From the NCBI GenBank assembly GCA_021324815.1, contig JAJPIJ010000030.1, forward strand, positions 1 through 64,000: a stretch of 64,000 nucleotides of DNA, in the 5' to 3' direction. Below the pieces are notes generated by a model. The model was given only the letters and a program-made list of their open reading frames with translations, was not told the origin of the DNA and did not search any database. Numbering within the stretch: the stretch's first letter is position 1; every line of letters starts with the position of its first letter. Positions 40,085 to 62,071 of the stretch are shown here, one piece after another. The stretch comes from Gammaproteobacteria bacterium (GTDB lineage Bacteria; Pseudomonadota; Gammaproteobacteria; JAJPIJ01). A program made the position numbers and the translations under genes.

Positions 40085-40085
40085 T

Positions 40086-41468
40086 TTGCCCATCGCCCCT
40101 CCCTTTTCCACCGCCGTGCTGAATCAGCTTGCCGCCGGCCTGCGCGGCGGATTGCTCACGCCCGGATCGGCCGTATATGAACGCAAACGCCGCGGCTGGA
40201 ATGCCGCCATCGATCAACGGCCGCGCGTGATCGTGGAATGCGCGGATGCCGGCGACGTGCGACACGCCGTGCGACTCGCGGCGGCACAAGGCGCAGGCGT
40301 TGCAGTGCGCGGCGGCGGCCACAGCATCGCCGGCCACGGCAGCGCGGACCATTCGGTGCTTCTCGATTTGTCGCGTTTCAAGAAAATACTAATCACCCCG
40401 GACGAACAGGCCGTCGTCGCCGGCGGCGGGGTGACGTGGGGTGAAATGGTGGCCGCCACCGCGCCGCATCGACTGGCCGCGCCGGGGGGCTTCAACCCGG
40501 ATGTCGGCATCGGCGGACTGACACTGGGCGGCGGCTACGGGGCGCTCACCCGGCTGCATGGGCTGGCCTGCGACAATCTGATCGCGGTCGAACTGGTGAA
40601 TGCGCAGGGTGAACTCGTGACGGTGGACGAACAGCATGATCCGGATCTGTTCTGGGCCTTGCGTGGCGCCGGGGCCAATTTCGGCGTGGTGCTGTCATTG
40701 CGCTTCAAGCTTCATTCCATACCGGCGCTGTACGCCGGCCACGTGGCGCACTCCCTGCGTCGCTGTCGCGATTTATTGCACCTCCACCGCGACTTCACGG
40801 CGGGCCTGTCCGACGCCACGACCGCGTATTTCGGCATTCGTCATCAGCGCCGCGGGCCGGCCTATGTATTCATCGCCGCCCTCCATGCCGGACCGGCGCA
40901 TGAGGCGGAACGCATATTTGCACCCTTGCGCAGATATGCCACGCCGGCGATCGACGACTTCGCGCCGTGCTCCTACACCGCCATTCATCAGGCCAACATC
41001 GGCGCGTTCCCCACGGGACTCGGCAACTATTGGCGCGCCCACTTTTTGCGCAGACTGTCGGATGCCGCGCTTGACGTCATTGCCGAGCACGCCTTGCGCG
41101 TACAGGACACGGATTTTTACGCGGTCATCGAGCATCTGGGCGGCGCGATGGCGCGGGTCGCCCCGTCCGCCACCGCCTTCGCGCACCGCGACGCGGCGTT
41201 CGGCATCGCCATCACCGCCAGGTGGCGGCTGGAGGAAGATCCGGCCGCGGCCATCCGCCAGGTACAGGCCATGCATCAGGATCTGATCCCGGAAGCGAGT
41301 GGCGGCGTCTACGTGAATTACGTCGGCGCCGACGCCACGCTGGCGACGGTGCGCGCCGCCTATGGCGCAAACTACGGGCGGCTGCTCGCGCTCAAGCGCC
41401 GCCACGATCCCGCCAATCTGTTCCGGCACAACGTCAACATCGACCCGCTTCAGTCCGGCAGTCCGTAA
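40086..41468 (+). CDS. FAD-dependent oxidoreductase (BBE-type, PCMH fold)
   Basis: A 460-residue flavoprotein of the berberine-bridge-enzyme-like family. The FAD domain shows RPRVIVECADAGDVRHAVRLA, VRGGGHSIAGHG (the His that often binds FAD covalently), VVAGGGVTWGEM and GGLTLGGGYGALTRLHGL. The BBE C-terminal part has YVGADATLATVRAAYGANY and LKRRHDPANLFRHNVNI. The start is a TTG at 40086, directly after the isochorismatase stop; no ATG is in place. The substrate is unknown. The 3' end overlaps the convergent SDR gene by 19 bases. Confidence 0.88.
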   Translation: MPIAPPFSTAVLNQLAAGLRGGLLTPGSAVYERKRRGWNAAIDQRPRVIVECADAGDVRHAVRLAAAQGAGVAVRGGGHSIAGHGSADHSVLLDLSRFKKILITPDEQAVVAGGGVTWGEMVAATAPHRLAAPGGFNPDVGIGGLTLGGGYGALTRLHGLACDNLIAVELVNAQGELVTVDEQHDPDLFWALRGAGANFGVVLSLRFKLHSIPALYAGHVAHSLRRCRDLLHLHRDFTAGLSDATTAYFGIRHQRRGPAYVFIAALHAGPAHEAERIFAPLRRYATPAIDDFAPCSYTAIHQANIGAFPTGLGNYWRAHFLRRLSDAALDVIAEHALRVQDTDFYAVIEHLGGAMARVAPSATAFAHRDAAFGIAITARWRLEEDPAAAIRQVQAMHQDLIPEASGGVYVNYVGADATLATVRAAYGANYGRLLALKRRHDPANLFRHNVNIDPLQSGSP

Positions 41469-42304
41469 TGCCTGAGCAGGCCGCGGTCGCGCCAGCGATC
41501 GGGAAACAGCCGGCTCAGCCACATGGCGAGCCGCATGCCCGGACCCGGCAGATAGCGCGTGCGCGGCCGCAGCGAAAGCAGGGCGTGTTCGACCGCCGCC
41601 ACCACCTGATCCGCGGGCGCCGCGCGACGGGCTGCGTCCTCCATCACCCGCGCCACCTGTTGCATCGGCTGCTGGTACAGGGCGCGGCATGCGGCGGGCA
41701 GTTCCGCCATCAGCCCGGCGGCGGCGGCGTGGGACTTCCGCCAGATCGGCGTGGCCACCGGTCCCGGCTCGATGACGGCGACGGCAATGCGCCACGGCTT
41801 GAGTTCCAGCCGCAGGGCGTCAGACAGCGCCTCCAGGGCGAATTTAGACGCCGCGTAGGGTCCCAGGAATGGCGGCGCGACGAGGCCGGACACCGAGCTC
41901 ATGTTCACAATCCGGCCCCGGCCGCGGCGCAGAAGCGGCAGGCAGCGCTGTGTCACCGCCAGCGCGCCGGTGACGTTGACCTCCAGTTGTTGCCGGAATT
42001 TCGCCAGCGGCACGCATTCGAGCGGCGCGGCGACGGCGACGCCCGCGTTGTTCACCAGCCCCCGCAGCCCCGCGTCGCCGGCCTGCGCGGTGAGGTATGC
42101 GACCGCGGCCGCAATCGATGATTCATCGGTCACATCAAGCAACAGGGGGACGAGATTCGGGCCCCTCCCGCCCAGCCGGGCGGCGTCATTGTCATTGCGC
42201 ACGCCGGCGTACACCGTGAAGCCGGCGCGCGCGAAATGACTGGCGCAGGCCGCGCCGATGCCGGTCGAGGCGCCGGTGATGACGAGATGGCCGCGTTTGC
42301 TCAT
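41450..42304 (-). CDS. Short-chain dehydrogenase/reductase, last gene of the peptide operon
   Basis: A 284-residue classical SDR. It has the NAD(P) motif ITGASTGIGAACA at the N-terminus, LVNNAGVAVAAPLE, the catalytic Ser in MSSVSG and the Tyr-Lys pair in GPYAASKFALEAL. The ATG overlaps the stop of the M55 gene by 4 bases (ATGA), so its product should be made along with the upstream M55, ATP-grasp and GNAT proteins. Function in the pathway is unknown; oxidation or reduction of a modified residue or a metabolite is conceivable. It could also be an unrelated passenger gene. Confidence 0.88.
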   Translation of the reverse strand: MSKRGHLVITGASTGIGAACASHFARAGFTVYAGVRNDNDAARLGGRGPNLVPLLLDVTDESSIAAAVAYLTAQAGDAGLRGLVNNAGVAVAAPLECVPLAKFRQQLEVNVTGALAVTQRCLPLLRRGRGRIVNMSSVSGLVAPPFLGPYAASKFALEALSDALRLELKPWRIAVAVIEPGPVATPIWRKSHAAAAGLMAELPAACRALYQQPMQQVARVMEDAARRAAPADQVVAAVEHALLSLRPRTRYLPGPGMRLAMWLSRLFPDRWRDRGLLRHYGLPD

Positions 42305-43998
42305 GGCGCGACGCTCCGGCGACGATTCCATTCCTCCGCCCCCGCGAGCGCCAGGAGCAGCACGCCGGTGGCGTGGTCGGCCAGCAATTCCGGTGGGTCG
42401 CCAAGGGAGCCGTCGAACAGGGCGCCGTCCGGGCGCTGCGCGCCGAGCAGGAAGTCCAGCAGCTGCCGGTGACGCGGCGAGGCGTGTTCGCCCACGAGTT
42501 GCAGGCACAGCGCCGCCTCGGCGGCCAGATCGGCATGTCCCTCCCGCATCACCCACGGCACCGCCATCAGCAACTCCTCCGTGCGCGTCTCCCAGCCCGC
42601 GGCAGTCATGGGCCGGCGCAGATAATGGCTGGTGAAAAAAAATTCATGCGCCAGCCAGTACAGGTCATAAACCCGTGAATGTCCGCGCCAGGGACGATCC
42701 GGGAAATGCACCCCCGTGTCCACGCCGAGGCTTTGCAGCATGCCGGCGATGATGAAGGCGTACACGGATGCCTCCCGGTCGCACAAATGCCGCAGATAAT
42801 CACGCAGCGCACCGGCTTCCAGATCGCCGGCGGGCAGACCGCGCTCTTTCAGGATGTACCAGGCGTCCACCCGCGCCATTCCCTCATGAGGCTTGAGTGT
42901 CGGGGGAAATGCCAGCGGTATCCTCCGCAACTCCCGCAGCGCCTCGCCCAGCACGGGTGGCAAATCAAGCCCGGCGTGCACGTGAGGCGCCCACGTCTCC
43001 AGCATGTGCAGGATCAGCGCCCGCAGCACCACGCTGAACTCGTCCCCGGACGCCGTGCAATGCAGGAAGGCCCGCGCTGTTTTGCGCAGATCGCCGGTGG
43101 GCAGCGCCCGATTTTCATCCTCCCTCGTCACCACCGGCCGCGTAATCAGTTCCGCGATGTCCTCCGCCAGCTCCCCGCTGCCGGGCTGGCCGCGCACCGC
43201 CGGAATGACGGCGGCGATGCTGTCGAGCACCAGCCGGTGGCCGCGCTCGTAGCGCTCGCGGAAACTGCCACCCTCCACGATCACCCGGTAGGGGGAACAG
43301 CGCCGCGCGCCGCGTTGCGCGGCCCATTCCACCTGCCAGCGGCTCTTGAACGCGATCTCCAGCGGCCGCGCGGCCGGCGGTTGCGCCGGCACGGGCACCG
43401 CAGCGGACGCCGCCGCGCGCAACGCCTCGCACGCCGCCTTTTCGTCCATGGACACCGCCCCTTCGGCGTCGCGGCTGGTCTTGACGCACAGGCGCGGCAC
43501 CGCCGGCGGCAGGGCCGCGCACAACACGTCGTCGCCTGCAATCAACGCCACCGGCAATCCTTGTTCCGCCGCCAGCGCGAGCACGATGTCGGCCTCGCTC
43601 AGACGGCGGCCGTCCAGCCACCAGTCGCATTGCACGCTGACCGTATGCGCGGCGAAGCCCGCGGTGCCGGCGGGCGCGTGCATGCCGACGCAGGCCACCG
43701 CATCCACGTCCTGGAAATAATGCGCCGCGTAAGCGTCCTCATCCAGCACCAGTTTTGCCAGCGGATGCAACGATTGCTGCCGCACATTGGCGCCCCTGGC
43801 GCCGCCGCGATGACTGTCGCTGACGACGATCTCTCCGTACCCCGCCGTGGCCAGTCCCTCGATCATTGCATTCACCTGTGCGGTCATGCGCGCGCAGGCG
43901 GCGTCATATTCCGCTGTTCCGGCGACAAGCGGCGGCAGCGTGTCGATGCCGGCGATGCCTTCCATGTCGGCAATCAGCAATATTTTTTTCACGTTCAT
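42301..43998 (-). CDS. M55 D-aminopeptidase fused to a helical C-terminal domain
   Basis: The first 270 residues of this 565-residue protein belong to the M55 (DppA) family of zinc D-aminopeptidases. The metal and catalytic residues of DppA (D8, E10, H60, H104, H115, E133) are matched by D11, E13, H63, H107, H118 and E135 by motif (IADMEGIAG, DSHRGGARG, VGMHAPAG, AAHTVSV). Residues from about 300 to 565 are helical and Trp/Tyr/Leu-rich with repeats such as LLMAVPWVMREGHADLA and LLDFLLGAQRPDGALFDG, recalling an alpha/alpha-toroid fold; this second part is not in DppA. MNVKKILLIADMEG at 43998 is the start: its ATG overlaps the ATP-grasp stop by 4 bases. A D-aminopeptidase here hints at D-residue chemistry, but this is inference. 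Confidence 0.85.
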   Translation of the reverse strand: MNVKKILLIADMEGIAGIDTLPPLVAGTAEYDAACARMTAQVNAMIEGLATAGYGEIVVSDSHRGGARGANVRQQSLHPLAKLVLDEDAYAAHYFQDVDAVACVGMHAPAGTAGFAAHTVSVQCDWWLDGRRLSEADIVLALAAEQGLPVALIAGDDVLCAALPPAVPRLCVKTSRDAEGAVSMDEKAACEALRAAASAAVPVPAQPPAARPLEIAFKSRWQVEWAAQRGARRCSPYRVIVEGGSFRERYERGHRLVLDSIAAVIPAVRGQPGSGELAEDIAELITRPVVTREDENRALPTGDLRKTARAFLHCTASGDEFSVVLRALILHMLETWAPHVHAGLDLPPVLGEALRELRRIPLAFPPTLKPHEGMARVDAWYILKERGLPAGDLEAGALRDYLRHLCDREASVYAFIIAGMLQSLGVDTGVHFPDRPWRGHSRVYDLYWLAHEFFFTSHYLRRPMTAAGWETRTEELLMAVPWVMREGHADLAAEAALCLQLVGEHASPRHRQLLDFLLGAQRPDGALFDGSLGDPPELLADHATGVLLLALAGAEEWNRRRSVAP

Positions 43999-44990
43999 TG
44001 CCCCGCGACGGGCGGCATGGGTTCCACGGCGGCGGCGGCGGCGGACAGTGATTCCGTGCGCGCGAAGGTCACCAGGTAGCGCGCCAGTTGCGTCAGCACG
44101 GCGGCCACGAACTCCGGACCAATCCACAGCAGATAGGGGCCCGGATTGCAGTCGAGATAAACGTGCCTGCCCTCCTCCGTGACGATGAGGTCCCAGGCCG
44201 CGAAATGCAGCCCCAGCCGTCGCGTAGCCGCCACGATGCGTTGCTGTTCCATCGCCGGCATGGCGTAATGGTCAAATCCCGCCGTGCCCGTGCGTGAATC
44301 GACATACTCGGCGCGGATGCGCAGGGCCAGCACCATCGCATCCGCCACCACGTGCACGCGTGCGACGCGGCCGCGCACGCGCTCCTGCATCAGCACCGGA
44401 CAGCAGCGGAATTCCTCGAGCCGCCGCCGATCCGCCGGCGTGACGAGACGGGTCGAACCGATGCCCATGGCGGGTTTCACCACCACCTCGCCAATCCGCT
44501 CGATGAATGACGCCGCGACCGTGGGATCATTGGTGGTCAGGGTGCGGGGGACATCGAAGCCCCAGGATTGAAGCTTGGCGTAGAACTGTGACTTGGTGTT
44601 GTGATCGGCGTAACCCGCGGTCAGGGGATTGACCACCAGCTTGCCGCGCGCCGCCAGTTCTTCGAAAAACCCATAGGCCGCCGCCTGATATTCCTGCTCG
44701 CGCAGAAACCGGCCGCGCCATTCGTTGTAAGAGACCATGTTCAACATGGGCGGCGGCGTGGGCGGCGTATTGGGCGAGGTGCAGCGGATGTGCACGGCGT
44801 GGATGCCGGCGAAGTCCAGGCCATCCCAGGCCAGCTCCCGCGTTCCATAGGACACCCGCGAACGGCTGGCGCCGCCCAGCTGAATGTCGAACATGCGCGG
44901 CTCCCCGCCCTCCCGTTTCACGGCTTCCGCGACGTACGACAGCTGCTCGCTGCCGCGGTCGGCAAAAAGCGCGATAACCGGCTTCTCCAT
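43995..44990 (-). CDS. ATP-grasp ligase (RimK-like), intact active site
   Basis: A 331-residue ATP-grasp protein. The Rossmann-like N-terminal domain is followed by the ATP-grasp part with candidate ATP-binding Lys133 (NTKSQFYAKL) and Lys172 (VVVKPAMGIGST). The metal site consists of Asp267, Asp280 and Asn282 (YLDCNPGP). ATP-grasp enzymes form amide, ester or thioester bonds through an acyl-phosphate. The closest type by pattern is RimK/amidoligase. It shows clear pattern similarity to the degenerate protein at 46276-47418. It lies in the peptide operon between the GNAT gene (32-base gap) and M55 (4-base overlap). It may add amino acids to, or cross-link, the Gly-rich peptide. Confidence 0.82.
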   Translation of the reverse strand: MEKPVIALFADRGSEQLSYVAEAVKREGGEPRMFDIQLGGASRSRVSYGTRELAWDGLDFAGIHAVHIRCTSPNTPPTPPPMLNMVSYNEWRGRFLREQEYQAAAYGFFEELAARGKLVVNPLTAGYADHNTKSQFYAKLQSWGFDVPRTLTTNDPTVAASFIERIGEVVVKPAMGIGSTRLVTPADRRRLEEFRCCPVLMQERVRGRVARVHVVADAMVLALRIRAEYVDSRTGTAGFDHYAMPAMEQQRIVAATRRLGLHFAAWDLIVTEEGRHVYLDCNPGPYLLWIGPEFVAAVLTQLARYLVTFARTESLSAAAAAVEPMPPVAGQ

Positions 44991-45022
44991 CCGGCTAGCC
45001 TAACCGATCTAGGGACAGGCTT

Positions 45023-45730
45023 CTAAACCACGGGGTCGTAGGGCGCCGGCAGCGTATGGAACAGCGGACGGCCGGATTTCTCCCGTTCCTCGCCGCGCGC
45101 CAGCTTTTCCTTGCGCTTCCTCCATCCCTCCTGGTTCATCGCAAAAAAGGCGTATTTATGCCCCCCCAATTCCCGCGTTTCGACCGGCGTGTAACCCAGC
45201 CGCTTGATCACGGCGTTGGCGGCGTGGTTGTCGTCACGCGATCGCGACCCGCACAGCGGCACGTTCAGATGCTCGAACATGTAATGGCCGACGGCGTCGT
45301 GCGTATTGAGCGCGTGGAAGGCGTTACGGTCGGCGGGATCCGGGATTGCGTAACCAAATTCCCAGAAAAAATTATCGATGACGGGCGGATACATCACCAG
45401 AAAACCGATGCGCTTGCGCGTCGCCACCGCCTTGATGATGGCCAGCACCAGGACGCCCGCACGGTAGCGGATCAACATCGACGGCGCGCCCAGCTCGCCA
45501 TAGCCGAACATCTCGGTAATTTCCGGGGAATGGAATTGTTCGATCATCCAGGACAGATCCGCCGGCGTCGGCGGCACCAGATACACCGTGCGCCGCTGGA
45601 TGCCGTACACCCAGCGCGACCAGTACGGACTCCGCGCGCCCATCCAGCAGCGATAGGCCAGAGAAGTCGCGGGCCGGCGGAGCCGGGGATGCTTGCATAC
45701 GCGCAGGAGCCAGTGCAATTTGTTGCCCAT
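45023..45730 (-). CDS. GNAT-fold N-acyltransferase
   Basis: A 235-residue protein with a GNAT core. Residues 50-70 hold VYLVPPTPADLSWMIEQF. The acetyl-CoA region is not canonical, but the C-terminal GNAT helix is clear: SRDDNHAANAVIKRLGYTPVETRELGGHKYAFF. The first 45 residues are basic and aromatic, and not part of the fold. A related GNAT may transfer acetyl or, in aminoacyl-transferase relatives, an amino acid. It lies just behind a terminator hairpin in the peptide operon. Which group is moved cannot be told. Confidence 0.65.
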   Translation of the reverse strand: MGNKLHWLLRVCKHPRLRRPATSLAYRCWMGARSPYWSRWVYGIQRRTVYLVPPTPADLSWMIEQFHSPEITEMFGYGELGAPSMLIRYRAGVLVLAIIKAVATRKRIGFLVMYPPVIDNFFWEFGYAIPDPADRNAFHALNTHDAVGHYMFEHLNVPLCGSRSRDDNHAANAVIKRLGYTPVETRELGGHKYAFFAMNQEGWRKRKEKLARGEEREKSGRPLFHTLPAPYDPVV

Positions 45731-45756
45731 GCCGGTAATCCAGTGTCAGCGGCTGC

Positions 45757-45797
45757 CTAAAAACAACGGGGGCATCCCATCCAGGATGCCCCCGCTT
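45757..45797 (-). terminator. Rho-independent-type terminator after the Gly-rich peptide gene
   Basis: A perfect 11-base inverted repeat (CGGGGGCATCC / GGATGCCCCCG, 45767-45777 and 45784-45794) with a 6-base loop is followed, read on the minus strand, by TTGTTTTTAGG. It lies 25 bases after the peptide stop and 36 bases before the GNAT start. An attenuating terminator between a precursor gene and its modification genes is a common way to give much more precursor than enzyme; read-through level is unknown. Confidence 0.85.
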
Positions 45798-45819: not shown

Positions 45820-46068
45820 TTACGAGCTGACGTTGATGCTGCCGATGGAGGTGTTGTCAGACGCGCTGGCATTGCCACCCTTGCCACCGCCGGCATCACC
45901 GCTGCCGGAACCCGAGCCGCTGCCTTTCGCAGTGCCCACGCCGGTGCCGATGCCCGCGCCCACGCCACCGTGGCTGCTGGCGTCGCCACCCATCTTCATG
46001 TTGCCGCTCTGCTGGACGCCGCCCATGCTGCTGGAACTGCCACCACCGCCTTTGCCCATCAAACCCAT
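45820..46068 (-). CDS. Gly/Ser-rich 82-residue peptide, candidate precursor of the system
   Basis: This 82-residue peptide has 29 Gly and 17 Ser, no Cys, Pro, Glu, Tyr, Trp or Phe, and only three Asp. It begins MGLMGKGGGGSSSSMGG, has a mid part GAGIGTGVGTAKGSGSGSG, and ends KGGNASASDNTSIGSINVSS. The gene has an excellent AGGAG box 7 bases before its ATG and lies between a sigma-54-type promoter and a terminator, so I am confident that it is translated. The KGG before NASASD could be a double-glycine junction, but the exporter's C39-like domain lacks the catalytic Cys. Neighbours on the same strand are a GNAT, two ATP-grasp proteins, M55 and export genes. No homologue is recognised; the role as substrate is inference. 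Confidence 0.8.
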   Translation of the reverse strand: MGLMGKGGGGSSSSMGGVQQSGNMKMGGDASSHGGVGAGIGTGVGTAKGSGSGSGSGDAGGGKGGNASASDNTSIGSINVSS

Positions 46069-46142: not shown

Positions 46143-46158
46143 AGCAGGTGTCATGCCA
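46143..46158 (-). promoter_or_regulatory. Sigma-54 (-24/-12) promoter of the Gly-rich peptide gene
   Basis: On the minus strand the sequence TGGCATGACACCTGCT matches the sigma-54 consensus TGGCAC-N5-TTGCT well: GG and GC are exactly 10 bases apart (GG at 46157-46156, GC at 46145-46144). Expected transcription start is near 46132, giving a leader of about 64 bases. The cluster encodes a GAFTGA-type sigma-54 activator at 60710-62071. An IHF site and a palindrome lie upstream at the distances normally seen for such promoters. Confidence 0.8.
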
Positions 46159-46275: not shown

Positions 46276-47418
46276 CTATACACCTGGTTTTACCGCCTGG
46301 TCCGCGACATCTTGGTCATCCTTGGTTTTATCCTGATTCGCATCCGCGCCGGCGTACTTGCTGTGCTCCATCTCAAATTGAATCTGGAGCATGCGGCGTA
46401 AAAACAGGGTGGGGCGCTCGAGGCGCGGCGGTAAAGCATGCGGTTCGACGGTGTCCCGCGCGGTACGGGCGGAGAACTGCCGTTCCAGCGCCTCCAGGAG
46501 GCGTTCCGCAACCGGTGGCGGCAATGCATCGAGGGATGGATCGAAATCCACGTCGAAGATCACCGTCTCCCCGCCGGCGTGGACATCGAAACTCACCTCG
46601 ATCCACCAGGCGCTCCCGGCGCCGGCCAGCCGCCCGAGTTCGGCCATCACCCTTTCCCCGGGCGTGAATGGCAGCCATGTTTCCAGCGATTCCATGCGGG
46701 CGAGCTCGCCGTGATCCCCGCCCGCTTCCAGTTCCTCGACCGGCCGCAATGAGGCCGGCTCCACGCTCAAACACAACAGACATTCCCCGCCAAACAGCCA
46801 GGCCCGCAGTTGTCGCCGGCCATCGTGGCCGGCCAGCATCACGGGCGGCTTGTCGGGGGCAATCAGGAACAATCGCTGCTTGTCGGTGAACCTCTGCCAG
46901 GCGGCGCGCCCGCTGGCCGGCCGCCACCAGACCATGGGATGGCGCTCCATGAAGGCCTCCACCTCCGCCATGTCGTTGCTGCACAGTAACTCAGGGACAC
47001 GAAAGCCCTGGCGCTGAAGCAGAAGCAGATGTTCCACAAGCATGAACTGCCGGGCGATCAACCTGCGTGAATTGATGACTTTCGCGCCGCGCCGCTCGAG
47101 CTCGGCAAACAGGCTCTCCCATGCGCTGTAGCGCTGCTGTTCCAGCAGATGATCATGGCGCCAGAGACTCCAGTCCGCAGTCCGCAACGCCGGCGGCAGG
47201 ACCGGATCCATGTACGGCAGCCCGCGCACCCACAGCCAGTCCAGCCTGCTCAGGTCCATGCCGCGGCACGCGACGGTTTCATCGTCCAGCACAAACTGCG
47301 GATCCTCCCGCCACGACAGATCGAAAACCATGCAGGATCCCGGGGCGGCGGAGTTCAGCCGCCCCGCCAGTTGCAACGCGAAGCTATCTTCGGGATGGCA
47401 GAAGATTCCTACGGCCAT
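46276..47418 (-). CDS. ATP-grasp-like protein with degenerate active site
   Basis: This 380-residue protein aligns by pattern with the intact ATP-grasp protein at 43995-44990: both have an N-terminal domain, a WR....LLEQQ/LREQE block, EL.RRGAKVINS / ELAARGKLVVN, and GF.VPELLCSND / GFDVPRTLTTND. The key residues differ: the first ATP Lys is absent (QFMLVEHL), the second is Arg166 (WWRPASGR), and the metal motif is FDVDFDPS in place of LDCNPGP. It probably does not hydrolyse ATP, and may bind the peptide or regulate its partner. A TTG six bases before the ATG at 47418 is an alternative start. A Lys/Asp/Gln-rich tail of about 25 residues follows the fold. It follows the three TolC-like genes by 49 bases. 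Confidence 0.65.
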   Translation of the reverse strand: MAVGIFCHPEDSFALQLAGRLNSAAPGSCMVFDLSWREDPQFVLDDETVACRGMDLSRLDWLWVRGLPYMDPVLPPALRTADWSLWRHDHLLEQQRYSAWESLFAELERRGAKVINSRRLIARQFMLVEHLLLLQRQGFRVPELLCSNDMAEVEAFMERHPMVWWRPASGRAAWQRFTDKQRLFLIAPDKPPVMLAGHDGRRQLRAWLFGGECLLCLSVEPASLRPVEELEAGGDHGELARMESLETWLPFTPGERVMAELGRLAGAGSAWWIEVSFDVHAGGETVIFDVDFDPSLDALPPPVAERLLEALERQFSARTARDTVEPHALPPRLERPTLFLRRMLQIQFEMEHSKYAGADANQDKTKDDQDVADQAVKPGV

Positions 47419-53680: not shown

Positions 53681-55018
53681 TCAATTGGCGCGGGTCACCG
53701 CCCCCCATTTATCCACCACCAGCACGTCCTTGTCATCCACATCGCCCACGATGCCGTTGAAGAGCAGGTAGTTCACCGACAGCGCCAGGTTGTTTTTCTT
53801 GCGCAGCTCGGCGAATTGATCGCGTAATTTCCTGATCTGCTCCATTTCCCCCTTCGAGGGGGCGGATTTGGCGTCCTTGGCTGGATTTGGATACCGCTGG
53901 GCAAACGCCTTGATCCGGATGACCGGCCCGGCCAGCTCCAGCAGGCTGGCGACATCCGAATAAATCTTCTTGCTGTCGTCGTCCTTGGTCTCCGCACCGC
54001 CGGCGCTCAGCTTGTCGAATTCCGACTGCGCCTGCGCCAGCAGGGGAATGGCCTGATCGGGCTTGCCCTGCTGGATGAGGTTCATCAGATTGCGTTCGAA
54101 CTGCAGAAACAGCACCTGGGCCATCACCGCCTTCAATTCCGTCGAATTCGGGTATTGGGAGGTGGCCTCGCTCAGTTCCGCCATCATGTTGCCAAGCTGG
54201 GTGGCCTGCTTTTGATGCTCGGCGGCGGAATAGTGCCCGGCGCTGTCCTCGTTGTCGCGCATGAAGGCCTTGACCTCGGCGCGGGAGTTCTTCAGCGCGG
54301 CCTCCGCGCCGGAACCGCCGCGGCCGAAATACCAGTAGCCGCCGCCGGCGATGGCCGCCAGCAACACGGCCAGCGCCGCCCATTTAAGTCCTGCGCCCTT
54401 CTTCCGCACAGCAGCCGGCGTCATCGCCGCCGCGTGCGCCGCGCCGCGGCGCGCCGGCGTGGCCGCCGCCCGCTTTTCAGCCTCCTGCTGCCTGTTTTTG
54501 GCGTCCAGCAACATCGCCGCCGCCATGAGATTGGAGCCGACGAACATGGTGCGCTCGGAAACCGTCTTGTCCGGATCGAAATCCGCCTCGTGTTTCCTGC
54601 CGTCCTTGGTCACGGTACCCTTGATGTCCGGACGCACCATGACAAACTGAAACGGTATCTTGCCAATCTTGATGGTGTCGCCCGGCTTCAACGGCGCGTC
54701 CTCCACCTTGGCGTCATTCACGTGCACGCCGTTGGTGCTGCCCATGTCCTGCACCCGCCAGCCGCCGTTGCTGAAATAAAAACGCGCGTGCCTCTTGGAA
54801 ATGCCGGTGGCGTTCAACGGCACGGTGTTCTCCTCGCCACGACCCACCGTTTGTTCCTTGCCGCTCAGATCGATTTCCAGCCCGCGGGTGGGATCGGGCA
54901 GCCGGCTTTGATCCAGGCAGATGAGCTTGCAGGGCAGCGGGCCTGCGGCCGCGCCCGCCGGCCGGGCGGGAACTTCCACGGTACCCGTGAACATCACGGT
55001 CTTGTCATCACTGCTCAT
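53681..55018 (-). CDS. FHA-domain membrane protein of the export cluster
   Basis: A 445-residue protein with no signal peptide. An FHA domain spans about residues 45-125, with VGRGEENTV, GISKRHARFYFSN and GSTNGVHVN as phosphothreonine-binding motifs. One transmembrane helix lies at about 212-231 (LKWAALAVLLAAIAGGGYW). A helical C-terminal domain that should be periplasmic follows (about 235-445). Two short stretches, DDKTVMFTG near the N-terminus and DPDKTVSERTMFVG after the FHA domain, are Thr-rich and may be phosphorylation sites. No Ser/Thr kinase gene is in the window. It sits between the ABC exporter and the TolC-like genes and may assemble or gate the exporter. Confidence 0.82.
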   Translation of the reverse strand: MSSDDKTVMFTGTVEVPARPAGAAAGPLPCKLICLDQSRLPDPTRGLEIDLSGKEQTVGRGEENTVPLNATGISKRHARFYFSNGGWRVQDMGSTNGVHVNDAKVEDAPLKPGDTIKIGKIPFQFVMVRPDIKGTVTKDGRKHEADFDPDKTVSERTMFVGSNLMAAAMLLDAKNRQQEAEKRAAATPARRGAAHAAAMTPAAVRKKGAGLKWAALAVLLAAIAGGGYWYFGRGGSGAEAALKNSRAEVKAFMRDNEDSAGHYSAAEHQKQATQLGNMMAELSEATSQYPNSTELKAVMAQVLFLQFERNLMNLIQQGKPDQAIPLLAQAQSEFDKLSAGGAETKDDDSKKIYSDVASLLELAGPVIRIKAFAQRYPNPAKDAKSAPSKGEMEQIRKLRDQFAELRKKNNLALSVNYLLFNGIVGDVDDKDVLVVDKWGAVTRAN

Positions 55019-55042: not shown

Positions 55043-58000
55043 TCAATTGACTCGTTGCAGCACGGGCGCTTCTTCCGGCGAAGGCGAGGGCGCCACCAAA
55101 TCCAGCGGCGGCAAATCGAACTGGGTTTGCGCCATGGCGTAATACAGTCCCTTGTATCCCATGGATTTGAGATATTCCCTGTCCAAAAGTTGCCTGTGGG
55201 TGCCCTTTTCCTGCACCTGACCGTCCTTGATGAAGCAGATCATGTCCGAATCCATCACCGTCGTCAGGCGGTGCGCGATTGAAATTGAGGTGCGCCCCGC
55301 CAGTATGCCCTGCATATTTTCCATGATGCGCGCCTCGGACTCGTTGTCGAGGGCGCTGGTGGCCTCGTCGAAAATGAGGATCTTGGGCTGGCGGTACAGC
55401 GCGCGGGCGATGCAGATGCGCTGCCGCTGGCCGCCGGAGACCCCGATGCCCTTTTCCCCCACCAGCGTGTTGTAGCCCAGCGGGTAGCGGATGATGAACT
55501 CATCGGCGCCCGCGAGCCTCGCGGCCTCCTTCACCGCCTGCATGTCCGGCTCCGGATCGCCGAGCGCGATGTTCTGCGCCACCGTGCCGCCGAACAGAAA
55601 GCTGTCCTGCAACACCACGCCGATGTTGGAGCGCAGCGAGGACAGCTCCAGCGTGCGGATGTCGCGGCCGTCGATCTTGCAGAAGCCGCTCTGTGGAATG
55701 TTGAAGCCCAGGATCATCTTGGCGATGGTGCTCTTGCCGCAGCCGGAGGGCCCGACGAAGGCCACGCGCATACCCGGCTCTATCTCCAGGTTGAAATTGC
55801 GCATGATGTTGTTTTCCTTGCCGTTGGCCACGTAGCTGAAATTGACGTCCTCGAAGGTGATCTCGCCGCGGCAATGCGCCAGGGTGGCGGGCATGCTGTC
55901 CGGCTGGAGCATGGTTTGTTCCGGCTTGACGGAGAGCACGTCGCCGACGCGGTCAATGGCGATGCGCACCTCCTGGAACTGGTTGATCAGATCGAGCATG
56001 CTCAGAATCGGCCCCATCACCGCCCCCATCAGCATCTGGAAACCCATCAATTCACCGATGGTCATCTGCCCCGCCATGACCGAACTGGCGCCGACGAACA
56101 GAATGGCGATGGTGGTGCCCGACTGCACCGTCTCGTACAGGCCCTTGGAAATCAGTTCCAGCTTCTGGCTCTGGAATTGCAGGTTGATGGTCTCGGTCAT
56201 CTGGTTTTCCCAGCGCGAGCGGGCGAAATATTCATTCGACGTCGCCTTCACCGCCTCGATGCCGTTCAACGACTCGATCAGATAGCTCTGCGACTGGGAA
56301 TTGGTGACGAAGGTCTTCTGCGCCAGCATCTTGATGCGCGGCACGAAGAACCACAGCAGCAGAAAATACAGGGGGATGGAACACAGCGTGATGATGGTGA
56401 GGGTGCCGTTGTAGGAAACCATCATGAACAGGTAGATCACCACCATCACCAGGCTCATGATGGTGGAGATGGTCGAGCCGGCGATGATGTGCCGGATTTT
56501 CTGATTCTCACCGAAGCGGGCCAGGATTTCGCCCTTGTTGCGGCTCAGGAAGAAATTCATCGGCAGGCTCAGCACGTGCCGGTAAAACTCGGCCACGAGT
56601 TTCAAATCGATCCGGGCAGTGGTGTAGGCCAGCAGCAGGGCCTGCGCCGACTTCGACAGCACGGTAAACAAGGTCACCAGCGCCATGCCCACCAGCATGA
56701 TCTTGAGCAGGTCGGCGTCCTTGTGGACCACCACGGTGTCGACGATGCTCTGCACGAACAGCGGCGTGGCCAGCCCCAGGAAATTGATGGTCAATGCCGC
56801 GAGCAGCCCCTCGGCGAAATACTTCCAATGCGGCAGGATGTAGTCGAGGAAGTGCCGCAGGGGGCTCTTGGGCGGCTCCAGGCGGGTGAATTCCACCGTC
56901 GGCTCCAGGCCGATGACCACCCCCCGGCTCGGGTCCTCCCGCTCCACACCGCTGACCTGCGCACGGGTCCAGCTGGTGATGAATTGCTGTCGCGGCAGCC
57001 GGCCCTGCCCGTAGAGGGAATCCGAGAAGTACACCTCCTTGTCCGTAATCTTGTAGATCACGGAATAGCGGTATCCCTCCCAGCCGACGATCACGGGCAG
57101 TTGCATGCGCTCCAACTGCTCGAACGTCACGGCATAGGCGCGCGCGGAAATGCCGAGGATCTCGGCCGCGGTGATGATGGCGTTGGGCGTCGGGTTGGCG
57201 ATGGAGAGATTGGCGATCTCGCGCACCTGGCCGAGCGAAAAGGGCTTGCCGTAATGCTGCACCACCATCGTCAGGCAGGCGGCGGCGTTGTCCTGCTCGC
57301 TGAACTGGCGGACGTTCGGGAAAGTATCAATGGCCTTGGCATGCTTGGCGAGGAATTCCTCCTCGGTCACCGCGTCGGCGAGCTTGATGCGCTGGTCCGC
57401 GCCCTCGGCGCGGCTCTTGATGTCCTTCTCCTCCTTCTCGCGGATGCGCATGGAATTAAACCGCACCCGCAGCTTTTCGTGCAGCGCCGGGTTGATGGCG
57501 AGGATCTTCTGGACCTCGGGCTCGTTGATGACCAGCACCGTGGTGTCCACCACGCACAGTGCCGAATGCGGCTGGATGCCGTTGGTGCCGACATCCGGCA
57601 GCGCTCCGCCCTCGCCGATGAGCTCGCGCGCGCCGACGCGATCCAGTATCACCTTCTCACCGGAAAGCAGGGTGCGTTCGAGATCCACCGAACCGGTCTC
57701 GATGTAGTACAGCCGGCGGTCTTCCATGTCCTGCTTGAAAAGATACTTGCCCTTCTTGCCCTTCTTGATGCCGATGCGGCTTAAGATGGCGGTGAATTGC
57801 TCCGGCGTGTACTTGGCCGCCCCCAGCATGCCGCGCAGGCGCTGCCCCAGCTCGACGAGCCCCACCTGCGTCTTGAAGGTGGCCGACATGGCGGGGCGGC
57901 CGGCCAGCAGCGGCCGCACCTTGTCGGCCGGCAGGAACAGCAGGCTTGAATCCTCCGAGGCGGTGATTTGGTAATCCCAGGGCTTGGGCTGGATCAGCGA

Positions 58001-58258
58001 AAATTCGCCGAAGGTGCTGTCGGTGCCGAACTCACCGAGACTGACGCGCCTGCCGGCCTTGGTCTCCTTGAGCCGGAGCTTGCCGGAGTACACCACGTAC
58101 ATGCCGGCCATGTTCTGGCCCTGCTCGGCGATCACCTGGCCCGCGCTGTAGGTCCTCACCTCGAAGAGCGGCGCAAGTTGTTGCTTGTCATCGTTGTTCA
58201 GACCGCTGAACATCAGGTGGCTGTTCAATACAAACCGGACTGCCTCTTCTTTACTCAT
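55043..58258 (-). CDS. ABC exporter with two cNMP-like domains and a C39-like domain
   Basis: A 1071-residue protein. Residues about 10-130 and 150-270 are two cyclic-nucleotide-binding-like domains (FGEFSLIQ; IGEGGALPD), both without the usual PRAAT Arg. A C39-like domain (about 310-450) follows, reading RQFSEQDNAAACLTMVVQHYG: the catalytic Cys expected at 324 is Asn and the next Cys is at 328, so it is not a competent leader peptidase. Then come six transmembrane helices (about 480-780) and the nucleotide-binding domain with GPSGCGKSTIAK, VSGGQRQRICIARAL and KILIFDEATSALD. The layout is like the HetC-type exporters of cyanobacteria. It lies between the FHA and HlyD-like genes. Confidence 0.92.
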   Translation of the reverse strand: MSKEEAVRFVLNSHLMFSGLNNDDKQQLAPLFEVRTYSAGQVIAEQGQNMAGMYVVYSGKLRLKETKAGRRVSLGEFGTDSTFGEFSLIQPKPWDYQITASEDSSLLFLPADKVRPLLAGRPAMSATFKTQVGLVELGQRLRGMLGAAKYTPEQFTAILSRIGIKKGKKGKYLFKQDMEDRRLYYIETGSVDLERTLLSGEKVILDRVGARELIGEGGALPDVGTNGIQPHSALCVVDTTVLVINEPEVQKILAINPALHEKLRVRFNSMRIREKEEKDIKSRAEGADQRIKLADAVTEEEFLAKHAKAIDTFPNVRQFSEQDNAAACLTMVVQHYGKPFSLGQVREIANLSIANPTPNAIITAAEILGISARAYAVTFEQLERMQLPVIVGWEGYRYSVIYKITDKEVYFSDSLYGQGRLPRQQFITSWTRAQVSGVEREDPSRGVVIGLEPTVEFTRLEPPKSPLRHFLDYILPHWKYFAEGLLAALTINFLGLATPLFVQSIVDTVVVHKDADLLKIMLVGMALVTLFTVLSKSAQALLLAYTTARIDLKLVAEFYRHVLSLPMNFFLSRNKGEILARFGENQKIRHIIAGSTISTIMSLVMVVIYLFMMVSYNGTLTIITLCSIPLYFLLLWFFVPRIKMLAQKTFVTNSQSQSYLIESLNGIEAVKATSNEYFARSRWENQMTETINLQFQSQKLELISKGLYETVQSGTTIAILFVGASSVMAGQMTIGELMGFQMLMGAVMGPILSMLDLINQFQEVRIAIDRVGDVLSVKPEQTMLQPDSMPATLAHCRGEITFEDVNFSYVANGKENNIMRNFNLEIEPGMRVAFVGPSGCGKSTIAKMILGFNIPQSGFCKIDGRDIRTLELSSLRSNIGVVLQDSFLFGGTVAQNIALGDPEPDMQAVKEAARLAGADEFIIRYPLGYNTLVGEKGIGVSGGQRQRICIARALYRQPKILIFDEATSALDNESEARIMENMQGILAGRTSISIAHRLTTVMDSDMICFIKDGQVQEKGTHRQLLDREYLKSMGYKGLYYAMAQTQFDLPPLDLVAPSPSPEEAPVLQRVN

Positions 58259-58312
58259 GATCCGCTCCTGATGCCCCTCGTACTCTAAAAAATAGCCCTA
58301 GCCGTCTTGAAC

Positions 58313-59713
58313 CTAGCTCTTGGCCACGGGTGCCGTTGGCGCCGGCGCCGCCTTTTCTTCCTGGCTGGATTCCTTGAAATATTTCGACAAGGGACGGAAA
58401 ACCAGTTCGATCAGGCGTTTTCCCCCGATCTTGATCTCGGCGGATCCCTCCAGGCCGATTTCCAGCTTTTTGGGTTTCTCGCCATTCTTGCTGATTTCCT
58501 CCGACATCAGCGCCACCCGAACCGGATATTTGTTGCCCAGTTGCTCGGAGGGCTTGGTGGCAATGTCGGTGATGCGTCCCTCCGGAATGCCGTAATCCTG
58601 ATAGGGATACGCAAAATACTTGAACATCACGCGCTGCCCCTTCTTCAGATGACCGATGTCCTTGTTTTCGACCAGCACGACAGCCTCCAGCGGCGCCGAT
58701 TCCTTGACCATGGTCACCAGCGGCTGGCCCGCCCCGATGACCTGGCCCTTGGTCACCAGCACGTCGGTGATGAGGCCGTTGAAAGTGCTGGTGTAGTCGG
58801 TCTTGCTTTCACCGAACTTGACGCCCTCGACCAGTTCCTTGCCGGCCTCGAGCTTGGTGCCGACCGCGGCGATGCGCTCCTGCAGCGCCTTGACGTCGCG
58901 TTCCTTGCGCTGCACGGTCATGTCCAGTTCGGCCTGCAATTCCTCCTTGGATTTCAATTGTCCGGACTTGGTCAGTTCATCCTGGGCGGTCGCCAGCTCG
59001 ACGTTGATGGAGGCGATTTGCGAACGGGTGTCATCGATGGCCTTCTGCTGCGCGGAGACCTGTGCCTGGGCGGCCTCGTACTCGGTCACCGTGATGTCGT
59101 GGCTGTCATACAGCGCCTTTTTGCGCTCGAATTGCTTGGTGAGCGTGGCCATGAGCTCCTCGTTGTGCGCCAGTGCGCGCTGGGCGGTGGCCAGCTGCTC
59201 CTGAATCTGCTTGATGCGTCCCTCCGCCGAACTCTTGCGCACCGCCGCGTTGGTATCGTAATCCTGAATTTGCAATTTGAGCTTGTTGATGGTGTTGTCA
59301 TACTCATCCTGCGTCTTGGAGAGTTCCTTCTCCAGCTCGCCGCGTTTCTGCTCCATGGCCTCCTTCTCGCTCTGGCCCGCCAGCCGGGTCTGCTCCTGGA
59401 TCGACACCAGCAAATCGCCAAAATGCACGTAACTGTTGGGGGTGGCGGGGAGATCGACCACGATGCCGCCGCCGACGGATTGAATCGTGGTGGATTCCCG
59501 CTGCAGGCGCAGCGGCGCCGTCACCAGTTCGTCCTTGCGGCCCCAGAAGGAGTAACCAATGGCCGAGAAGGTGATGATACCGATGAGCCAGATCGGTCCC
59601 CGCAGGATGACTGACGGCGGCGTGTACAGCAGGCGGGCGGCGGCAATGGTATGCCGCACGGGCTGGGATATTAATTGTTCCACCCGCACCTTGGTGTTGG
59701 CACCTACCGCCAT
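58313..59713 (-). CDS. HlyD-family membrane fusion protein
   Basis: A 466-residue adaptor with a cytoplasmic N-terminus, one transmembrane helix (about residues 40-60, IWLIGIITFSAIGYSFWG), a long coiled-coil hairpin (about 110-290, EKELSKTQDEYDNTINKLKL) and a beta-barrel/lipoyl end part. Such proteins join an ABC exporter to a TolC channel. GGGGAG lies 5 bases before the ATG. A C-terminal Lys/Ala/Pro tail of about 25 residues extends beyond the usual domain. It is adjacent to the ABC gene. Confidence 0.9.
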   Translation of the reverse strand: MAVGANTKVRVEQLISQPVRHTIAAARLLYTPPSVILRGPIWLIGIITFSAIGYSFWGRKDELVTAPLRLQRESTTIQSVGGGIVVDLPATPNSYVHFGDLLVSIQEQTRLAGQSEKEAMEQKRGELEKELSKTQDEYDNTINKLKLQIQDYDTNAAVRKSSAEGRIKQIQEQLATAQRALAHNEELMATLTKQFERKKALYDSHDITVTEYEAAQAQVSAQQKAIDDTRSQIASINVELATAQDELTKSGQLKSKEELQAELDMTVQRKERDVKALQERIAAVGTKLEAGKELVEGVKFGESKTDYTSTFNGLITDVLVTKGQVIGAGQPLVTMVKESAPLEAVVLVENKDIGHLKKGQRVMFKYFAYPYQDYGIPEGRITDIATKPSEQLGNKYPVRVALMSEEISKNGEKPKKLEIGLEGSAEIKIGGKRLIELVFRPLSKYFKESSQEEKAAPAPTAPVAKS

Positions 59714-59792
59714 AACATCTCCCCCTCCTGCCTTCTTTCAGATTCCATGACCGGCCGCACTCCCGGCGGTCTGCACGTCAATTAAATTAATC

Positions 59793-60680
59793 TCAGGCTG
59801 GCGCGATGCGCACCTCGTGTTCCAGCCATTCCGCGAACAGGCGCTCGCTGATTTGCTCCTTCAATTCATCGCTGTATTCGGCGTCCTGCACGTCATCCAC
59901 GCGGTACAACACCCAATAGCCATCCTGCGCCACGGGGCCCACCAGCGCGCCGGCCGTCGAGGCAAACAGCGCCTTTTCGACGTCGGCGGGCAGCATACCC
60001 CAGCGGATGCGGCCGAGATAGCCCCCGGCCACCCTGGTATTCTGCTCCAAGGAATGCTCCCTCGCCAGCACGGAAAAATCCCGCTTTCCGGCGCGGATTT
60101 GAGCGGCAAACTCCTCCAGCGGCGGCGCCTCCCGCAGCACCATGCGCGAGACGGAAAGGGTCTTCAATTCCCGCCGGTGCGCGTCGAAGTATTCGCGTAT
60201 CCGGGCCTCCGGAAACAGCGTTTTTTTCAGGCGCTGTCGCAGCAGTTCGATTTCGATTTGCTTCTGCCAGTGATCGAAGGTGATCCCCAGCCATTTGCAG
60301 TACTCGTTCATCGCCGTGGCCTCAAGCAGCCCCATGCTCTCCCGTCGGGCCTTGCTGTAGGCATGCAGCTCCTCTTCGCTGACGGACAGTCTCAGTTCAC
60401 GCGCCTTGAGCATGACAACCTCGATCGAGATGATCTGATAGATGGCATTGCGAAAGACGCCGGTGGTCTTGAGATAGAGCAGCACGTCATCGACGGTGAT
60501 GGGCTTGCCTCTGACCGTGGTCAGCGCCCGGGGTTGCGACACGGCTTCCGCGTGCGGCGCCGCCGGCATCCTGCTGCGAGCCCGCGAGCGGGTGCTGCGC
60601 TCCAGGCTCAGGAAATCCAGCAACGTCATGTCGTGGACGCCGCCCTGCTGATTCAAGGTTTGCTCTCCCCCCGTGACCAT
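59793..60680 (-). CDS. Parvulin-type peptidyl-prolyl isomerase (PpiC/SurA-like) in the export cluster
   Basis: A 295-residue protein, part of it with a SurA-type N-terminal helical domain (VDDVLLYLKTTGVFRNAI, EELHAYSKARRESMGL) and a parvulin domain (about 165-260: SVSRMVLREAPPLEEFAAQI, FSVLAREHSLEQNTRVAGGYLG). No signal peptide is visible, so it may act in the cytoplasm on exported substrate, as such proteins next to HetC-type exporters probably do. Start is uncertain: ATG 60680 gives MVTGGEQTL; a TTG at about 60659, or the ATG of MTLLDFLSLERST (about 60629), are possible. Confidence 0.8.
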   Translation of the reverse strand: MVTGGEQTLNQQGGVHDMTLLDFLSLERSTRSRARSRMPAAPHAEAVSQPRALTTVRGKPITVDDVLLYLKTTGVFRNAIYQIISIEVVMLKARELRLSVSEEELHAYSKARRESMGLLEATAMNEYCKWLGITFDHWQKQIEIELLRQRLKKTLFPEARIREYFDAHRRELKTLSVSRMVLREAPPLEEFAAQIRAGKRDFSVLAREHSLEQNTRVAGGYLGRIRWGMLPADVEKALFASTAGALVGPVAQDGYWVLYRVDDVQDAEYSDELKEQISERLFAEWLEHEVRIAPA

Positions 60681-60709
60681 TTTCTATCCTACATTCCCCG
60701 GTATCCGCC

Positions 60710-62071
60710 TTATTCCACGCGCGAATCCACCCGCCGGCGACCACGGACGCGAAAATCCGCTGGTTTGAGGTCATGTTTCTTCAACAATTGATAGAGCCGG
60801 GCGCGGGAAATTCCCAGATCGGCGCATACGGCCTGCACCCTTCCGCCCAGACGAGTAAGCACGGCCGTGAGTGTCTGTCGCTCGGCCTGATCCTTGGCAT
60901 ACAGGAGCGGCGAATCCACATCCCCGTGGCCGGCCACGGCGGCCGTCGCCGTCTGATAACGCTCCGGCAGATCCCCCACACCCAGCGGCGCGTCCGTGGA
61001 GACGTTCACCAGGAACTGCGCCAGGTTTTTCAGTTCACGGATATTGCCCGGAAAATCGTAATGCTCATAGAGAAACTTCTGCAACCGGCGATCCAGCACC
61101 GGCTCGCGAACGCCACGGCGGGCGGCCTCGGCCTGGAAAAAATATTCAAACAGGATGCGGATCTCGTCGCGCCGCTCCCGCAGCGGCGGGATGAACAGCG
61201 GGCACAAGTTGATGCGGTAAAACAAATCCTCGCGGAATGTGCCCTGTTCCACCATCGTCGCCAGATCGCGATTGGTGGCGGCGATCACCCGCACGTTGGT
61301 CTTGACCGCCGCATCCGAACCGACGCGCTGCAATTCCCCCTCCTGCAGCACCCGCAACAACTTCACCTGCGCCGGCATCTCCAGCTCGCCGATCTCGTCG
61401 AGGAAAATCGTGCCGCCGTTGGCCTCCTCGAATTTGCCCTTGCGATCATGAGTGGCGCCGGTGAACGCCCCCTTGACATGGCCGAACAGCTCCGACTCGA
61501 TGAGCCCGCTTGGAAACGCGCCGCAATTCACCGCCACGAAATGCGTGCGCCCGCTGTTGTTGTGGATAAGCCTGGCAAACAACTCCTTCCCCGCCCCGGT
61601 CTCCCCCTCCATCAGCACCGTGAGATCAGTGGGCGCAATTCTGGAAATGATGCGCAGCAATTTCTGGATGCGCGGACTCTGTCCGATGATGCCCTCCATC
61701 TTGAGTTCCACGGCGCCGGCGCGGCGGCGCGAGGAGGATTCGACGCCAGGTGCGGCATCCTGATTGACCTGGATGCCCCCGCGGCTTTGCAACAGGGCAC
61801 TGCGCAGGATATCCAAATCATTGAAGAGATCATTGCGATCCAGTTCCGTCAGGCCCGGCAATCGCAACAATTTGATTTTCAAGGATTCTATCCGTGCGAT
61901 GTGTTCCATCAACACATCGCCCGTCTCCACCGCGGGCAGTGTCACGGGCCGCAGGATGGGGCGGGGCTCGGGAGGCTTGACCCGGTAGTCGTCGTTCAAC
62001 TCGATCATGGCATTATTGAGACCACTGCCTGAGGAGCGATGAGTTGAGAATACACGAACTCGCCCTCCCAT
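60710..62071 (-). CDS. Sigma-54-dependent transcriptional activator
   Basis: A 453-residue activator without a receiver domain. Its N-terminal part (about 1-170) is unassigned. The AAA+ core has GETGAGKELFARLI (Walker A), HVKGAFTGATHDRKGKF with the GAFTGA loop that contacts sigma-54, and GGTIFLDEIGELEMPAQVK. A Fis-type helix-turn-helix ends the protein (LGISRARLYQLLKKHDL). I chose the ATG at 62071 because it has AGGAGG 9 bases upstream; the ATG at 62008 (MIELNDDYRV) has no good box and would shorten the protein by 21 residues. It heads the export operon, and the peptide gene has a matching -24/-12 promoter. Confidence 0.9.
   Translation of the reverse strand: MGGRVRVFSTHRSSGSGLNNAMIELNDDYRVKPPEPRPILRPVTLPAVETGDVLMEHIARIESLKIKLLRLPGLTELDRNDLFNDLDILRSALLQSRGGIQVNQDAAPGVESSSRRRAGAVELKMEGIIGQSPRIQKLLRIISRIAPTDLTVLMEGETGAGKELFARLIHNNSGRTHFVAVNCGAFPSGLIESELFGHVKGAFTGATHDRKGKFEEANGGTIFLDEIGELEMPAQVKLLRVLQEGELQRVGSDAAVKTNVRVIAATNRDLATMVEQGTFREDLFYRINLCPLFIPPLRERRDEIRILFEYFFQAEAARRGVREPVLDRRLQKFLYEHYDFPGNIRELKNLAQFLVNVSTDAPLGVGDLPERYQTATAAVAGHGDVDSPLLYAKDQAERQTLTAVLTRLGGRVQAVCADLGISRARLYQLLKKHDLKPADFRVRGRRRVDSRVE

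Follow-up and report, generated by a model that had tools for sequence, protein, structure and literature searches.

The minus strand of the window analysed here, a stretch of 64,000 nucleotides from a gammaproteobacterial genome of 2.37 Mb (GenBank assembly GCA_021324815.1, contig JAJPIJ010000030.1, positions 1 to 64,000; contig C29 of genome G000 in our sample), was found to carry a gene cluster that we consider, with a probability of about 0.72, to be an undescribed branch of the graspetides. Its core consists of a sigma-54-dependent activator (EBP), a peptidyl-prolyl isomerase (PPI), an HlyD-type adaptor (HLYD), an ABC exporter, an FHA-domain protein, three TolC-like channels (OEP1 to OEP3), two ATP-grasp proteins (GRASP1 and GRASP2) and a Gly-rich peptide (PEP), and this core recurs jointly in diverse Proteobacteria. 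GRASP2 belongs with the graspetide synthetases, PsnB being the closest, and probably cross-links the Gly-rich peptide. The reading draws on computed gene content, co-occurrence, residue conservation, folds and promoter enrichment. An earlier note on this DNA had recognised no named class of ribosomally synthesised and post-translationally modified peptide in the gene combination, a view that the assignment of GRASP2 overturns. As judged from sequence, the cluster has the features by which graspetide systems are recognised, namely an enzyme of the synthetase family, its catalytic residues and a linked short precursor. It may overlap with a published graspetide group (24 + 19 groups in PMC13097080, 174 families in PMC8939145). 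A literature search, with supplements and the 2021 graspetide survey outside its reach, found no paper describing the gene combination or the peptide motifs.

GRASP2 (43995–44990) was matched by TIGR04187 at 2e-23, and a profile built from 11 of its sequences, compared with solved structures, placed PsnB first (PDB 7DRM, 6e-34), followed by MdnC, MdnB, CdnC, PruB and AMdnB. By fold, a model built from 16 sequences (predicted local distance difference test, pLDDT, 84) also had PsnB, bound to its precursor, as top match (4e-23). In the alignment, from which G498 was left out for one in-frame TGA and to which G331 and G541 contribute partial rows, all 16 sequences retain K133 and K172, and R233, D267, D280 and N282 are present in all 15 rows that cover them. 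A VDSRT segment of GRASP2 aligns with the DFR segment of PsnB, a motif described as critical in PMC13097080; the equivalent D and R occur in 15/15 covering rows, the middle residue being S and not F.

GRASP1 (46276–47418) is a degenerate paralogue of the same enzyme. The earlier note had counted two ATP-grasp proteins, and this is borne out for GRASP1 by profile and fold and not by Pfam, none of whose ATP-grasp models it matches: a profile of 10 sequences was PsnB-like (1.3e-15 against PDB 7DRM) and close to that of GRASP2 (99.7% probability), and a model from 14 sequences (pLDDT 78) had the PsnB fold (1e-18). In all 14 sequences K172 is replaced by R, R181 by Q, and R233, the Arg of the DSR motif, by L or M, and 13 of them have Asp in place of the metal-site Asn. 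Because of the loss of K172, of the motif Arg and of the metal-site Asn, GRASP1 is predicted to be a catalytically dead partner.

The peptide gene (45820–46068), preceded by an AGGAGA ribosome site, encodes an 82-residue Gly/Ser-rich precursor with a K-x-G-G-D motif and the C-terminal sequence DNTSIGSINV, and matches no Pfam or NCBIfam model. It belongs to a family of 57 peptides of 77–106 residues from 17 genomes, picked with a pattern in which both motifs are obligatory, so that the following counts describe a motif-selected set. Near the N-terminus is K-x-G-G-[DE], with K in 57/57 and the last position D in 50 and E in 7; the C-terminus reads D-N-T-S-I-G-x-I-N-[IV] (also summarised as D-N-[TP]...G), with D, N and G in all 57, T in 56, I in 54 and S in 53. 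The middle, on average 53 residues, is 40.6% G, 21.5% A and 10.8% S. Four motif-bearing frames were omitted, one cut at a contig start and three degenerate or frame-shifted; five peptides were used out of seven pattern matches in G104, and one of eight matches in G235, unlike the motif, was not used.

A sigma-54-type promoter (-24/-12; TGGCATGACACCTGCT, 46143–46158, minus strand) scoring 10/12 lies 90 bp 5' of the peptide ATG, and an intrinsic terminator with a 14-bp stem and a T tail (45765–45796, minus strand; z = -4.0) follows the gene, in agreement with the promoter and terminator that had been reported around it. No sigma-70-type site was found on the minus strand between 45000 and 48000. 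By itself the sigma-54 site carries little weight, since the window has ten sites of equal score. In the family as a whole, a site of at least 10/12 was found within 200 bp of 13 of the 30 leading peptide copies and of none of the 27 followers, the rate in random windows being 1.1%, and of the sites in 38 kb of G001 the best-scoring one precedes the first peptide gene. The activator gene EBP (60710–62071; AAA+ with a Fis-type helix-turn-helix; Pfam Sigma54_activat, 5e-69) has an open frame extending to 62215, with GAFTGA at residue 249 of that frame, and probably starts at 62071 or 62008. Its orthologues head the operon in G001, G331, G235, G372 and G525.

The distribution of these genes links them to one another. 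In G001, from the same genus, the block is present in the same order with proteins 65–94% identical, and the cluster includes three tandem peptide genes and three GNAT genes; searches of two genomes of the same family (G002 and G003) found GRASP1, GRASP2 and the peptide pattern all absent. Among 369 genomes of the class, GRASP2 had 13 matches at E < 1e-8, of which seven were orthologues (at least 342 bits), the next match scoring 78 bits, and the exporter at E < 1e-250 was found in exactly those seven (hypergeometric 6e-15, computed ignoring relatedness). This genome-wide exporter search covered the class sample, ten of the GRASP2 genomes lying outside it. The peptide pattern DNTSIGSINVS with up to three mismatches matched 18 of the 369 genomes: G000, G001, G331 and G235 carry peptides, in several copies clearly of the same family in the last two, and the other 14 are single matches with 2–3 mismatches. 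GRASP2 orthologues (346–379 bits) were present in six of the seven peptide genomes outside the genus.

Searching 398 genomes of the phylum gave six further ones with GRASP2, and the peptide pattern, run on them afterwards, matched five of the six, in arrays of 2–4 copies adjoining GRASP2, with a fifth copy on a separate contig in G541; a scan for Gly-rich frames in G412 found three peptides with the ending SIGTISISS immediately ahead of GRASP2. Starting from GRASP2, peptides were thus found in 8/9 genomes, these being all six phylum-level genomes together with G104 and G319, whose peptides were missed by the strict pattern and recovered by later scans. In control genomes the same pattern matched 2/14, neither match being a Gly-rich peptide; a backward control pattern had a single match each in G365, G471 and G498, and one extra match of the pattern in G471 is not a peptide. 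Overall, peptides were found in 16/17 GRASP2 genomes, six of them chosen on GRASP2 alone, and GRASP1 in 15/17. The earlier note held that homologues without the peptide gene or the exporter would speak against a single pathway; as far as this was followed, the exporter occurs in the same 7/369 genomes as GRASP2, and in one GRASP2 genome, G147, no peptide was found.

Gene order is kept in part. G525 has the whole core in window order on a single contig, EBP being cut by the contig end, and G331 and G372 likewise show the window order from EBP as far as GRASP1. Peptides and GRASP2 are located elsewhere in G331 and on the other side of EBP in G372, and the peptides lie on other contigs than GRASP2 in G331 and G235. 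An exact scan of a species-genome collection returned 17 stretches from metagenome-assembled genomes titled Rhodospirillales (two), Methylococcales, Thiotrichales, Betaproteobacteria, Gammaproteobacteria, Bordetella parapertussis and, once, Neomarinimicrobiota; this last match (L044), inside a 450-codon frame, was rejected as chance. The assembly titled Bordetella parapertussis (L046/L048; CAMDSO010000128.1 and CAMDSO010000015.1) carries peptides and GRASP2, and its species label looks doubtful. A phage or plasmid origin was rejected: among plasmids, GRASP1 had no match, a G235 peptide query found nothing and GRASP2 had only distant matches, all below 36% identity, and a single scan of viral contigs with GRASP2 found nothing.

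Open frames without internal stops and domain models confirm the gene set, order and single strand given in the earlier note; its 4-base overlaps are present between OEP1 and OEP2 and between GRASP2 and the M55 gene, and between M55 and SDR if the latter starts at the ATG at 42304. Downstream of EBP lies PPI (59793–60680), a PpiC-type isomerase (Rotamase, 1e-10) that is TIGR04500-like, hence MirC-like (5e-21); TIGR04500 was the best match for four of the five isomerases scanned and the second for the fifth. HLYD (58313–59713) matches HlyD_3 (6e-15) and type_I_hlyD (2e-28). As deduced from domain models, the exporter (55043–58258) combines two cNMP domains, a C39 domain and an ABC domain. The C39-like domain noted earlier is thus present, with its Cys and His lost in the window copy: the Cys-His-Asp triad is intact in nine of 11 genomes compared and lost only in the window genus (window and G001), where Cys has become Asn and His Arg. 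Since the triad is intact in most relatives, the GG of K-x-G-G-[DE] is likely the ancestral C39 cut site.

The FHA protein (53681–55018; FHA, 4e-17) has a membrane-spanning stretch, and its homologues adjoin exporter genes. OEP1 (51569–53527), OEP2 (49539–51572) and OEP3 (47468–49567) match the OEP family at 4e-26, 4e-22 and 2e-24. In a tree calculated without G525_pos1 (322 aa), and with the partial loci of G235, G373 and G525 read at their correct positions, the three channels form three clades by position, the sole outlier being the long-branch G147_pos2, which suggests that they make a hetero-trimer or are three specialised channels. A further protein family was seen beside GRASP2 in five genomes (L070:8494-9336, L065:15328-16197, L100:466-1293, with homologues in G319 and G369), and the three members scanned are PP2C phosphatases; it has no homologue among the window frames between 36000 and 64000. 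Such a gene would fit control by Ser/Thr phosphorylation through the FHA protein.

The remaining genes of the cluster are a GNAT acetyltransferase (45023–45730; Acetyltransf_3, 1e-6), an M55 D-aminopeptidase fused to a DUF6895-like domain (42301–43998; Peptidase_M55, 5e-43; DUF6895, 5e-9) and a short-chain dehydrogenase/reductase (SDR, 41450–42304; adh_short, 3e-44). The M55 fusion reported earlier is real, its C-terminal part scoring 36.5 bits for DUF6895 against a cut-off of 23.8. M55-DUF6895 and GNAT were found in 2/20 genomes tested, both in the window genus, and were rejected as core parts. A close homologue of SDR stands beside the cluster only in G001; distant proteins of the superfamily occur in the G235, G369 and G373 neighbourhoods, and the other neighbourhoods searched, in place of whole genomes, had no match at 1e-6. 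SDR is therefore unsupported as a core part and its role in the system is unproven. From their restricted occurrence all three look like add-ons, so that the single pathway proposed in the earlier note is supported for the core, on the shared occurrence of GRASP2, exporter and peptides, and not for GNAT, M55-DUF6895 and SDR. G001 has four GNAT homologues (C13 18764-22412; C11:4339-5019), three of them around its three tandem peptide genes, and the window genome has one GNAT and one peptide. DUF6895 is named a lasso-peptide epimerase family in the title of an ACS Catal. 2026 article cited by PMC13352647. The predicted joining of an epimerase-like domain to a D-aminopeptidase, in the sole genus seen to lose the C39 protease, is worth testing.

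Outside the cluster, a two-partner secretion (TPS) channel gene (62163–63893, minus strand) adjoins EBP's end of the block. Upstream of it and past the window end (G000:C29 63957-67457; L148 3957-7457) lie a LapD-like GGDEF/EAL gene, a LapG-like C93 protease gene and the end of a gene for an MBG-domain protein, and with these the TPS gene is probably part of a c-di-GMP-controlled two-partner adhesin set. It was grouped with them and left out of the system. In G331, an FGE-sulfatase-like protein (L077:5889-6782) is encoded between GRASP1 and a TPS channel. On the plus strand of the window, a FAD-dependent berberine-bridge-type oxidoreductase gene (39816–41468), convergent with SDR, is also kept in G001.

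Several observations weigh against a graspetide system. GRASP2 reaches 83 bits with TIGR04187 (cut-off 350), PPI 75 bits with TIGR04500 (cut-off 180) and the exporter 490 bits with the NHLP/PCAT type TIGR03796 (cut-off 853), all below the cut-offs of the families found in the rosaritide cluster, and TIGR03796 is only second best for the exporter, after the HlyB-type TIGR01846 (576 bits, cut-off 726). Donor and acceptor residues are few in the peptides, that of the window having three Asp and no Glu; the conserved ones are K and D/E of K-x-G-G-[DE], the D of DNTS (57/57) and its T (56/57), in a set selected on these motifs. Six of the 14 GRASP1 sequences have Lys at the position of K133 and 13/14 have Asp at that of D280, so some nucleotide binding may remain. 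A strong sigma-54 site is missing from 17/30 leading copies (for G498 only 25 upstream bases are present), and the arrays without one include all of G373, G104, G319 and G370. G370 is a peptide genome with no GRASP2 match, and in G147, the GRASP2 genome for which no peptide was found, a looser pattern gave 15 matches, all outside KxGG[DE] frames. In G147 and G369 the exporter genes are divided between the two strands; in G319 a peptide gene precedes HlyD, and that contig gave no match for PPI or EBP; and the fetched stretches of G369, G371, G373, G412, G498 and G541, for which no genome-wide search was made, showed no exporter. Outside the genus, every organism to which a name could be given is a metagenome-assembled genome, and the chemistry is a prediction.

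Some of these points would suit other explanations. That the peptides are structural, Gly-rich subunits of a secreted matrix or surface fibre made in many copies, which GRASP2 stiffens or polymerises through isopeptide or ester links within or between molecules, is unlikely; the Gly/Ala/Ser-rich middle and the seven pattern matches in G104 would be expected of it, and TPS and LapD/LapG-like genes adjoin the window cluster, with TPS near GRASP1 in G331. TPS is, however, near the cluster in three genomes only, the search for LapD/LapG covered the window genome only, and no evidence here speaks of a polymer. The graspetide synthetases described so far are not known to work other than inside a single peptide, which also counts against it. 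Quite improbable is a GRASP2 that attaches an amino acid or some other nucleophile to the peptide, for example at the conserved C-terminal region, in the manner of RimK, LysX/ArgX and other ATP-grasp amide ligases. RimK and LysX/ArgX are indeed its second-rank neighbours by sequence and fold, the peptide C-terminus is strongly conserved and donor/acceptor pairs are scarce; graspetide ligases nevertheless match better by both sequence (6e-34 against 1e-5) and fold (4e-23 against 4e-15), GRASP2 keeps D and R in its DFR-equivalent segment, and the TIGR04500-like partner and C39 exporter fit the graspetide clusters in PMC13097080.

An unmodified type I substrate, with the conserved C-terminus as secretion signal and the ATP-grasps acting on something else, would agree with the HlyB-type best model of the exporter, the dead C39 domain of the window genus and the conservation of the C-terminus. 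We think it very unlikely, as peptide arrays directly adjoin GRASP2 in 6/6 phylum-level genomes, where they were predicted from GRASP2, and the C39 triad is intact in 9/11. A chance neighbourhood of unrelated genes could be argued from GNAT and M55, present only in the window genus, and from SDR, whose close homologue is at the cluster only in G001; for the core it is refuted by the conservation of gene content across different classes and by the fact that, among 369 genomes, those with GRASP2 are exactly those with the exporter, and its likelihood is negligible. A graspetide system remains the preferred reading.

If the cluster does make a graspetide, the linked sigma-54 activator would turn on the peptide gene or genes, and GRASP2 would phosphorylate an Asp or Glu side chain of the peptide and join it to Ser, Thr or Lys, giving a lactone or lactam. 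For this link the invariant D of DNTS and the D/E of K-x-G-G-[DE], with the T, S or K close by, are the candidates. GRASP1, which lacks the catalytic Arg and one of the lysines that bind ATP, may hold or present the peptide together with the MirC-like isomerase. The ABC exporter, HlyD and a TolC-type channel, perhaps made from three different paralogues, would secrete the peptide, with the cNMP and FHA domains gating export. Cleavage after the conserved GG is probably the task of the C39 domain in most relatives, where it is active; in the window genus, with the protease dead, the added GNAT and M55-DUF6895 might cap, epimerise or trim the peptide. A bolder version, a two-subunit synthetase whose dead ATP-grasp, its gene closing the export operon, ties cross-linking to secretion by way of a hetero-trimeric TolC, with the two invariant peptide ends joined and the Gly-rich middle forming a very large loop or, if molecules are linked to each other, an extracellular polymer, seems distinctly doubtful.

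With this system the graspetides would gain a form that is Gly-rich, often multi-copy, under sigma-54 control and apparently exported from diderm cells, and that has a degenerate but conserved ATP-grasp as partner. A 2026 paper (PMC13097080) presented partner dependence in graspetide biosynthesis as a first, and a second, different kind of partner would therefore be informative. Cross-linking and the role of the dead copy could be addressed with a small defined gene set (peptide, GRASP2, GRASP1 and PPI), the three TolC paralogues raise the question whether they can make one channel, and the conserved peptide ends provide a search motif missed by present family models.

Among known systems, the rosaritide cluster (group 21) comprises MirA, MirB (TIGR04187), MirC (TIGR04500), which the rosaritide synthetase requires, and MirD (PCAT, TIGR03796), according to PMC13097080. 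The window system shares with it a synthetase nearest TIGR04187, an isomerase nearest TIGR04500, a C39-ABC exporter with TIGR03796 as second-best model and a small precursor nearby, at scores below the three cut-offs as given above. It differs in being proteobacterial, in its extra HlyD, three TolC paralogues, FHA and cNMP domains, sigma-54 activator and degenerate second ATP-grasp, and in a precursor family that is long, Gly-rich and often in tandem copies.

PsnB of plesiocin (group 2) is the closest solved structure to both ATP-grasps, and GRASP2 keeps the D and R of its DFR motif as DSR. Plesiocin is made by a single-enzyme pathway from a different precursor, whereas the window system has two ATP-grasps. 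Microviridin clusters encode the ATP-grasps MdnB and MdnC, the GNAT MdnD and the ABC protein MdnE, and, like the window cluster, combine a small precursor with a pair of ATP-grasp genes, a GNAT and an ABC exporter. The window system differs in that only one ATP-grasp appears active, the inactivity of GRASP1 being predicted from its residues, in that GNAT occurs in one genus only, and in its outer-membrane export parts and regulators; scores for MvdC and MvdD were 57 against 425 and 48 against 475 bits, outside both families. With HlyB-type type I and PCAT exporters it shares HlyD, ABC and TolC components, the complete type I set, and a C39 domain, whose PCAT triad is kept in nine of the 11 genomes and not in the window and G001. 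It departs from both in the three conserved TolC paralogues of its operon, the two N-terminal cNMP domains of its exporter and the FHA protein.

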